64,000 nucleotides of DNA from Bacillota bacterium (lineage in GTDB: Bacteria; Bacillota; UBA4882; UBA10575). Every line of letters begins with the position of its first letter. Positions within the stretch are counted from its first letter, which is position 1. Positions 35,554-39,106 of this stretch are shown piece by piece. The translations under genes were made by a program, and so were the position numbers. The notes under the pieces were generated by a model. That model searched no databases, was not told the origin of the DNA, and was given only the letters and a program-made list of their open reading frames with translations. The stretch spans positions 46,326-110,325 of the forward strand of contig DUQR01000043.1 of NCBI GenBank assembly GCA_012837715.1. Direction: 5' to 3'.

Positions 35554-35682
35554 CTATATAAACCTCGCTTGTTGAATTTACAGGGATCTTTTCGCGATAA
35601 AAAAGAGGAATCCTTTTCCTTAGTAGAGAAGTTTCCTCGAAGATATGATGATCGCGGGGATAAAGCTAAAGCTGGTGACGGA

Positions 35683-36741
35683 ATGATTAAGACTGAAATT
35701 ATCCGCGTTAACCCGGAAGCGCCCGATGAAGGGGCATTGGCTCAGGCGGCGGCGATTCTGCGCCGGGGAGGACTGGTTGCTTTTCCCACAGAGACAGTAT
35801 ACGGCTTAGGGGCCGTTATTTATAACCGGGTTAGTGTAAAAAATATTTTTACCGTTAAAGGCCGGCCAGGGGACAATCCATTGATTGTCCATATTTATCG
35901 GGAAGAACAAATCTTTGAGCTTGCCCGGGAAACGCCGGCGGCGGCGATGGTCCTGGCCCGACGGTTCTGGCCCGGCCCGTTAACCATGATCTTGCCGAAA
36001 CGCGAAGGGATCCCGGTGGAGGTCAGCGCCGGTCTACCCACGGTCGCGATTCGGCTGCCTTCCCATCCGGTTGCCCGGGAACTTTTGCGCTTGACGGATC
36101 TGCCGGTGGCGGCGCCGAGTGCGAATCTTTCCGGTCGACCCAGTCCAACCCGGGGGAGCCACGTGATTACCGATCTGAATGGGAAGATTGAAATGATTAT
36201 TGATGCTGGTCCGACCGGAGTAGGGGTCGAGTCGACCGTGCTGGATCTGACTGGTCTTCGTCCGCGGATTCTCCGTCCCGGTGGGGTTACCCGTGAGATG
36301 CTGGAAGCGGTTTTGGGTGCGGGCGCCGTGGAGACGCCGGAAGCGCTCAATGACAGCCGTCCGTTGGCCCCCGGAATGAAATACCGGCATTATGCGCCAC
36401 AGGCGCCCCTCCGTCTGCTCACCGGCGAAACAAGAGTAATCCACACTTTTCTCCAAGAAAGGGTTGACCAGGCACGCCAGGCCGGAAAGAAGATCGGGGT
36501 AATCGGTTACGACGAAGACCAAGGCATTCCGTCTTGTCGAACGGAAGTCACTTTTTTTTCGTTGGGTCGGCGCAGCAACCCGGCGGAAGGGGCAGAGCGC
36601 TTGTTTCATCTCCTAAGACTCTGCGATCAGGCCGGAGTGGATGAAATATATGCGGTAGCGCCCCCGCGCACGGGGGTCGGAGAGGCGGTTTATAACCGTC
36701 TGCTTAAGGCTGCCGGCGGGAAAGTCGAGGAGATAAAATGA
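35683..36741 (+). CDS. tsaC: L-threonylcarbamoyladenylate synthase (Sua5/YwlC type)
   Basis: The enzyme makes threonylcarbamoyl-AMP for the t6A37 modification of ANN-decoding tRNAs. The YrdC domain has RRGGLVAFPTETVYGLGA, KGRPGDNPLIVHI, RFWPGPLTMIL, VAIRLPSHPVAREL and APSANLSGRPSPT; a C-terminal Sua5 domain after GMKYRHYAPQAPL follows. ATG 35683 (352 residues) matches the usual Sua5 N-terminus; the track start would add 38 unrelated residues. It starts the run tsaC-DUF3108-ywlE/rpiB-upp. Confidence 0.95.
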   Translation: MIKTEIIRVNPEAPDEGALAQAAAILRRGGLVAFPTETVYGLGAVIYNRVSVKNIFTVKGRPGDNPLIVHIYREEQIFELARETPAAAMVLARRFWPGPLTMILPKREGIPVEVSAGLPTVAIRLPSHPVARELLRLTDLPVAAPSANLSGRPSPTRGSHVITDLNGKIEMIIDAGPTGVGVESTVLDLTGLRPRILRPGGVTREMLEAVLGAGAVETPEALNDSRPLAPGMKYRHYAPQAPLRLLTGETRVIHTFLQERVDQARQAGKKIGVIGYDEDQGIPSCRTEVTFFSLGRRSNPAEGAERLFHLLRLCDQAGVDEIYAVAPPRTGVGEAVYNRLLKAAGGKVEEIK

Positions 36742-37478
36742 GTTCTCGTAGCCGGGTCTGGGGAGTTTGCTTGCTGTTATGCATTGTATTCTGTTGCACA
36801 CAGCCAGCCTTGAGCCAAAGAAAGGGGTTTTTAGTGGGCGAAACCTTGGAATATCAAGTTTTTACTAAAGGTCTGCCCATTGGGGAACAGATCTTCCGGC
36901 TCCGACGGGAAAAAGTGGTTCAGAACCGTCGTGTTTTTGAGATCGAGATGAGTTTACGCAGTTATGCCGCTTACGCTCTTTTTTATAGTTATGGCGAAGA
37001 GAACCTTTTGCACCTGGATGCCCAGGATCTTACCCCTGTGAGCCTGAAAAAGGTGATTAAAGAGAAGGACAAAGTTTGGGAAGAGCAGTATTATTTTGGC
37101 GGCGAAAAGGTGGAAAAACGGGTCTTGGTTCCCGGGAAGGCGGTCCAGATTTCGACCTATGAAGCCAAACACCCTCTTTTAGAGGGTCTCTCTTTGATTT
37201 ATTACCTCCGAAACCGGCCTTGGCGGCAAGGGCTGAACCAGGTTTATTATTTGACCAATAAAGGGGCGCAACCGGTTATTTATGAACATCGAGGGAAAGA
37301 GCGAATCCGGGTGCTAAATGATCACCACTGGGCGGAAGTCGTGCATGATCCTGTCTCCCAGGTCACAGTCTGGTTTTCCCAAGATGATGCGGTTTATCCG
37401 TTACGGATTCAAGTGGCGACCAATATCGGTGTTTTAACCGCCCGTTTGGTAAAGATCAACCATGGGTCGGACGAATAA
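36738..37478 (+). CDS. Secreted DUF3108-type protein
   Basis: The 246 residues open with a signal peptide (VWGVCLLLCIVFCCTQPALSQ) and continue as a beta-rich extracellular domain (GETLEYQVFTKGLPIGEQIFRL, EQYYFGGEKVEKRVLV, VWFSQDDAVYPLRIQVATNIGVLTARL). That pattern is DUF3108, a family of unknown role. The two cysteines just before the cleavage site do not fit a lipobox. It overlaps tsaC by four bases (ATGA) and so belongs to the same operon. Confidence 0.75.
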   Translation: MSSRSRVWGVCLLLCIVFCCTQPALSQRKGFLVGETLEYQVFTKGLPIGEQIFRLRREKVVQNRRVFEIEMSLRSYAAYALFYSYGEENLLHLDAQDLTPVSLKKVIKEKDKVWEEQYYFGGEKVEKRVLVPGKAVQISTYEAKHPLLEGLSLIYYLRNRPWRQGLNQVYYLTNKGAQPVIYEHRGKERIRVLNDHHWAEVVHDPVSQVTVWFSQDDAVYPLRIQVATNIGVLTARLVKINHGSDE

Positions 37479-37503
37479 TAATGGATTCAGACAGGAGGTA
37501 AAG

Positions 37504-38457
37504 ATGGTCCAGAATATACTCTTTGTCTGTACGGGGAATACTTGCCGTAGTCCGATGGCGGCGGCCTTGCTCCGACAGCTATTAAAAGAACGCAGTGATC
37601 TACAGGGGACGATTGGAATCTCTTCGGCCGGGCTCTATGCTTACCCCGGGGCGCCCGCTTCCCAGGAAGCGGTGGAAGTGATGCGGGGTTACGGGATCGA
37701 TCTCTCAACCCACTTAGCACGGGAGCTTGAGCAGGAAGAGTTGGCGGCAGCCGATTTAATCTTAACCATGACTCACGCCCAGAAAGAACAGATTCTCAAG
37801 ACTTATCCGGCCTTGAAGGATCGGGTCTTTGTCTTCAGAGAGTATCTGCGGAGTCGGGGCCGGGTTGATGGACCCGATGGTGATTTGCCCGATCCCTTTG
37901 GACAACCGGTGGAGGTGTACCGGCGGTGTGCCGCCGCGATCGAGAAAGATTTAAGGGCGCTAATCCAATTAATGGAAACAGACAAAAAGGACATTGGCCA
38001 ACAGAAAGGGGGGAGAAAGATGAGAATTGCCTTGGGTTCCGATCATGCCGGCGTTGATCTCAAAGCGGAGATCGCCCAATACCTACAGACCAACGGTTAT
38101 GAGTTCAAGGATTTTGGTGTTTTTTCCACCGAATCGGTTGATTACCCTGATCAAGCGGCTATTGTAGCAAAAGCAGTGGCTAAAGGCCAGTTTGACCAGG
38201 GGATTATTATATGTGGAACCGGAATCGGCGTTTCCATTTCGGCTAACAAAATAAAAGGGATTCGGGCAGCCCTTTGTCACGATGTTTTTTCAGCGCAGAT
38301 GGCCCGCGCCCACAATGATAGTAATGTATTGACTTTGGGTGCCCGGGTGGTTGGTCCGGGGCTTGCCCTCTCCATTGTCGAAGCCTACCTGAAGGGGGAA
38401 TTTGCCGGCGGACGTCACCAGCAACGGGTCGATAAAATCATGAAACTGGAAGAATGA
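37504..38457 (+). CDS. rpiB: In-frame fusion: YwlE-type protein-arginine phosphatase and ribose-5-phosphate isomerase B
   Basis: One open frame of 317 residues joins two proteins normally encoded separately. Residues 1-160 are a low-molecular-weight phosphatase with FVCTGNTCRSPMAAALL and the acid motif DLPDPFGQ; the threonine in CTGNT is the residue that makes YwlE prefer phosphoarginine. Residues 173-317 are RpiB, with MRIALGSDHAGVDLK, CGTGIGVSISANK and RAALCHDVFSAQMARAHNDSNVL. A strong GGGGGGAG lies five bases before the internal ATG at 38020, so RpiB may also be made alone. The outer start is ATG 37504 behind AGGAGGT. No stop codon separates the parts. Confidence 0.93.
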   Translation: MVQNILFVCTGNTCRSPMAAALLRQLLKERSDLQGTIGISSAGLYAYPGAPASQEAVEVMRGYGIDLSTHLARELEQEELAAADLILTMTHAQKEQILKTYPALKDRVFVFREYLRSRGRVDGPDGDLPDPFGQPVEVYRRCAAAIEKDLRALIQLMETDKKDIGQQKGGRKMRIALGSDHAGVDLKAEIAQYLQTNGYEFKDFGVFSTESVDYPDQAAIVAKAVAKGQFDQGIIICGTGIGVSISANKIKGIRAALCHDVFSAQMARAHNDSNVLTLGARVVGPGLALSIVEAYLKGEFAGGRHQQRVDKIMKLEE

Positions 38458-38470
38458 AAAGGAGGAATAG

Positions 38471-39106
<636 letters not shown>

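Follow-up and report, generated by a model that had tools for sequence, protein, structure and literature searches.

A conserved ywlE-rpiB gene fusion in Bacillota that probably retains an inner start for free RpiB

The arginine phosphatases YwlE of B. subtilis and PtpB of S. aureus harbour a CTGNTCRS motif with a Thr residue at the PX5 position and a DPFG acid loop. In LMW-PTPs, that Thr steers the enzymes to phosphoarginine, and an Ile to phosphotyrosine (PMC8001253). The closest solved relative of the phosphatase described below is 4EGS, an LMW-PTP structure deposited as 'Ribose 5-phosphate isomerase RpiB'. This protein, which we take to come from Thermoanaerobacter tengcongensis, aligns end to end with residues 1-146 of a fused relative in our collection (L091). 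Since it is named RpiB yet matches the phosphatase half of L091, its gene most likely represents the same ywlE-rpiB fusion, the crystal holding the PTP half only. We found nothing about an inner start in connection with 4EGS. As for RpiB itself, it is oligomeric in known structures. A second in-frame start within one gene is also on record, for instance in cheA. Similarly, in cas8b a second in-frame start, in most cases preceded by a Shine-Dalgarno (SD) sequence, gives the C-terminal product Cas11b (PMC11899642). The gene described here resembles both in that an internal start codon would yield a C-terminal product of the same frame, and it differs from them in that the short form predicted here is an entire metabolic enzyme formerly encoded by a separate gene. 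Thus, the fusion itself is not new to databases, as 4EGS illustrates, and the mechanism of in-frame initiation within a gene is already known. Our searches for fusions of YwlE with RpiB, or of PTPs with isomerases, found no paper discussing them, and the repeated fusion of ywlE and rpiB with a conserved inner start appears to be unreported in the literature searched.

We analysed a stretch of 64,000 nucleotides of Bacillota DNA (hereafter the window), all features of which are given here on the forward strand. Translation of positions 37504-38457 yields a single frame of 317 residues followed by a stop codon and devoid of internal stops, in agreement with the frame and coordinates of the initial annotation, and the frame is likewise open in relatives. 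It is preceded by an AGGAGG Shine-Dalgarno sequence (37493-37498), which ends five bases before the ATG at 37504 and is conserved as ACAGGAGG or similar in relatives. Pfam analyses identified an LMWPc domain (PF01451, 9e-36) at residues 5-153 (37516-37962) and a LacAB_rpiB domain (PF02502, 2e-60) at residues 175-312. Both models are covered over nearly their whole length, indicating that the fused protein has two complete domains. The motifs are also those claimed, with CTGNTCRS at residues 9-16 and MRIALGSDHAG starting at residue 173. The RpiB part, residues 173-317 with the stop codon, extends from 38020 to 38457. Upstream lie genes for a Sua5/YwlC-type threonylcarbamoyl-AMP synthase (35569-36741; PF01300 and PF03481) and a DUF3108 protein (36738-37478; PF11306), and the uracil phosphoribosyltransferase gene upp follows (38477-39106; PF14681). 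Together with its conservation in relatives (see below), these features establish that the ywlE-rpiB fusion is a real, conserved gene fusion.

An AlphaFold2 model of the fused protein shows two confident domains (mean pLDDT of 90) with a pTM of 0.56. The inter-domain linker (residues 163-172, 37990-38019) is hypervariable, with indels among relatives, and its residues 163-170, with pLDDT values below 50, are predicted to be disordered. Such a model fits two domains that are independent and flexibly tethered, and it speaks against a fixed interface between them in the monomer. As RpiB is oligomeric, the fused protein would also cluster phosphatases.

The phosphatase half has the C(X)5R P-loop and the DP acid loop of the LMW-PTP fold. 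It is similar to YwlE (E value of about 1e-27), and its nearest solved structures are 4EGS followed by YwlE (4PIC and 1ZGG). Residues C9, Thr13, R15 and D130 are invariant among 22 fused proteins, as is the P-loop (37528-37551), in which Thr13 occupies the phosphoarginine-selecting PX5 position. Asp130 (37891-37893), aligned with the DPFG loop of YwlE, is the presumed general acid. Unlike YwlE, this phosphatase, known here from its sequence, is fused to RpiB at its C-terminus and has a longer loop before DPFG. It is the only LMWPc match in the genome. As in organisms with YwlE, the same genome codes for McsB (425 bits with NF002194, for a cut-off of 385) and for McsA, which scores just under its cut-off, and the phosphatase half therefore has its expected partner system. 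By our own reading, the cluster order is ctsR-like, mcsA, mcsB, clpC-like, radA and disA, the ctsR-like and clpC-like genes being named by position and sequence only. The assignment of McsB relies on the NCBIfam equivalog match, as a PF00217 control matched none of 14 named genomes. Both the Thr at PX5 and the presence of McsB and McsA support classing the phosphatase half with the arginine phosphatases. McsB was rejected as a predictor of fusion, being uninformative because it is nearly universal in our phylum sample (370 of 399 genomes). No McsB domain (PF00217) was found in two fused genomes, G340 (family f18, listed as 100% complete) and G011 (f1), in which an arginine phosphatase would be without its usual kinase.

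The RpiB half, whose solved relatives include 3HE8 (C. thermocellum) and 2VVR (E. coli), is a full-length domain that scores above the rpiB equivalog cut-off (TIGR01120, 191.5 vs 138.65); it differs from both in having a phosphatase at its N-terminus. The SDHAG, CGTG, HND and GGRH motifs are kept in the fused proteins, and D180, H181, C237, G238, T239, H270, N271 and R304 are invariant in the 22 proteins compared. A second RpiB-like gene (L133:1486-1938 in G000:C6) is found between two genes resembling transketolase halves. Its catalytic motifs are altered, with CDENA in place of SDHAG and NNA in place of HND, and it outscores the fused copy on the D-erythrulose-4-phosphate isomerase model, yet remains below the cut-off of that model. 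Its sequence suggests that it may have a substrate different from that of the fused RpiB. As we detected no match to RpiA in this genome and the motifs of the second gene are altered, the fused RpiB is the leading candidate for ribose-5-phosphate isomerase in this organism. Three other fused genomes, G201, G223 and G036, have neither an inner start, nor RpiA, nor any other RpiB match. We infer that the fused form must be an active isomerase in these bacteria, and since they rely on it, free RpiB would be helpful at most and not generally required.

We sampled eight genomes of the genus, including the source genome, and found the fused frame in each, with the seven other proteins 74-83% identical to the one described here and linkers that differ by whole codons. 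At the family level, the fusion occurs in 13 of 16 genomes, and the split members belong to genera g2 (G008 and G013, with gaps of 71-76 nt between the genes) and g4 (G010), and the order outgroup G016 is split as well. Among 399 genomes sampled across the phylum, 22 from outside of the family have an uninterrupted two-domain frame, and a 23rd fused genome, G036, was identified as two matches in one frame. Fused genes outside of the family thus occur in at least 23 genomes from 15 families, including six single-contig assemblies; the count is a minimum, as only strong joined matches were retained. The conservation of the frame over independent assemblies excludes chance.

A two-domain tree with 70 rows, which does not distinguish fusion from fission, requires a minimum of 15 changes between the fused and split states, of which at least nine are imposed by branches with good support. 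Fused and split neighbours on the tree include f18, f76, f20 and f68. The split genus g2 is nested with good support among the fused genera g1, g5 and g6, and its tree position would fit either one fusion followed by fission or two fusions. In G010 (L020), the split genes overlap by 4 nt (ATGA) in another frame, and the SD of rpiB is located inside ywlE, plausibly representing an intermediate between split and fused genes. The loss of one stop codon, initially proposed as the origin of the fusion, is one possibility among others. As the genes of split sisters either overlap out of frame or are separated by 71-76 nt, an indel in a G010-like overlapping arrangement appears at least as likely.

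We then turn to the junction. A 17-nt purine run, AGAAAGGGGGGAGAAAG, is found at 38003-38019, directly before the internal ATG (38020-38022), the putative start of free RpiB. The initial annotation was right that an internal SD precedes this codon, and its spacing needs correction, as GGGGGGAG ends four bases before the ATG rather than five. To evaluate this site, SD pairing with start codons was scored along each fused gene and all windows were compared. The SD AAAGGGGGG (38005-38013) and its ATG form the strongest pair of the gene. Of the 36 fused genes, 25 have the pair at the domain boundary as their top window, 4 have a marginal pair there and 7 have lost it, although these genes are related and do not amount to 36 independent cases. 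In the nearest clade (g1, g5 and g6), it is the best pair in 10 of 10 genes. There, nucleotide identity reaches 0.83 over the five codons preceding the inner start vs 0-0.56 in the linker upstream, and the purine run, 17-21 nt long in all ten members, exceeds every other run in the same gene; in the g3 fusions it is only 0-2 nt long. The start residue, M173, varies only to Val, both times encoded by GTG. In addition, the second Gly codon of the box is GGG in 10 of 10 genes, the sole one of 20 invariant Gly columns with a fixed third base, and Arg within the box is encoded by AGA or AGG, though AGR represents about 10% of Arg codons. The residues beside the box vary freely with indels, the box itself being purine-only. 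In the window, the region around the inner start is less folded than 200 of 200 shuffled sequences (z = +2.34), and in split relatives the same box serves as the real ribosome-binding site of rpiB. The inner SD and start are thus retained beyond chance, consistent with the intact internal site first noted.

A weak point is that the peptide KGGxK readily yields a good SD. A per-genome test of synonymous codons in the inner SD, given this peptide, returned P values of 0.04-0.41 and was not significant for most genomes, indicating that synonymous choice alone leaves individual SDs unexceptional. The case for an inner start is based on the conservation of the whole box, its loss along with the start codon and its recurrence in other lineages. 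Sequence comparisons indicate that most other fused lineages keep the inner start and that a few, namely g3, f94, f20 and f13, have lost it; three of these four have no RpiA. The g3 fusions (L017 in G009, L018 in G015 and L019 in G014) have no inner SD and have TTA or TTG at the start position. In their YwlE halves, the DPFG loop is also preceded by a long insert. In the family, RpiA is found solely in this genus, the one without an inner start. We considered whether retention of the inner start is confined to genomes in which RpiB is the sole ribose-5-phosphate isomerase and rejected this: the fused genomes G201, G359, G223 and G036 have neither the inner start nor RpiA, precluding a general relationship between RpiA and the inner start across the phylum.

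The reading that we consider probable is that this gene makes two products, full-length YwlE-RpiB and free RpiB, the latter by internal initiation at the retained rpiB start. Ribosomes starting at 37504 would synthesize a 34-kDa bifunctional protein, whose YwlE half would remove McsB-made phosphoarginine and whose RpiB half would interconvert ribose-5-phosphate and ribulose-5-phosphate. Other ribosomes entering at 38020 would produce a 16-kDa free RpiB. Free and fused subunits might share one oligomer, so that only some RpiB subunits would carry a phosphatase, and RpiB dosage would thereby be uncoupled from YwlE dosage. With an internal start in place, a subsequent split of the gene would also do no harm, in keeping with the many switches between the fused and split states.

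It is rather unlikely, in our estimation, that only the full-length protein is made and that the inner SD and Met persist as relics because KGGxKM serves as a flexible hinge peptide. The results of the synonymous-codon test are in line with such a hinge, as are G201, G223 and G036, in which the fused form has to be sufficient because they have no inner start and RpiB is their sole recognisable ribose-5-phosphate isomerase. However, a hinge peptide does not account for a box that remains purine-only next to freely varying residues, for the fixed GGG codon or for the choice of AGA and AGG codons, and the g3 fusions work with other hinges (GKNQQR and KNEQQ). Pausing of elongating ribosomes at SD-like sequences has been proposed in the literature and is disputed. 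That the box chiefly acts in this manner, giving YwlE time to fold and initiating nothing, would agree with its location exactly at the domain boundary; we nevertheless regard it as improbable, as a start codon is kept at the correct spacing with the box, exchanges between ATG and GTG preserve initiation and not the residue, and the box is a genuine ribosome-binding site in split relatives. Finally, the junction contains a GGGGGG homopolymer, a place where an assembly or sequencing error could have removed a stop codon or shifted the frame. This explanation, also raised initially, is rejected as hardly conceivable, given that eight independently assembled genomes of the genus share the fused frame with linkers differing by multiples of three nucleotides, and that single-contig genomes elsewhere are also fused.

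Production of two proteins from the fusion is thus the reading that we retain as probable. It is ordinary in kind, and its moderate interest lies in the fact that the inner start has been retained repeatedly. Were it true, two proteins would exist where standard annotation counts a single one. The conserved inner start makes a model of fusion with a retained start directly testable. More tentatively, the fusion might be selected rather than neutral: mixed oligomers with a set number of phosphatases would link protein-arginine quality control to pentose-phosphate metabolism, with the inner start setting the ratio and allowing shuttling between the fused and split states. The fusion physically ties the phosphoarginine system to a central sugar-phosphate enzyme, an association for which we found no published function in the literature searched. 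More generally, this gene pair suggests how two operon neighbours can fuse repeatedly while keeping separate production of the second enzyme.
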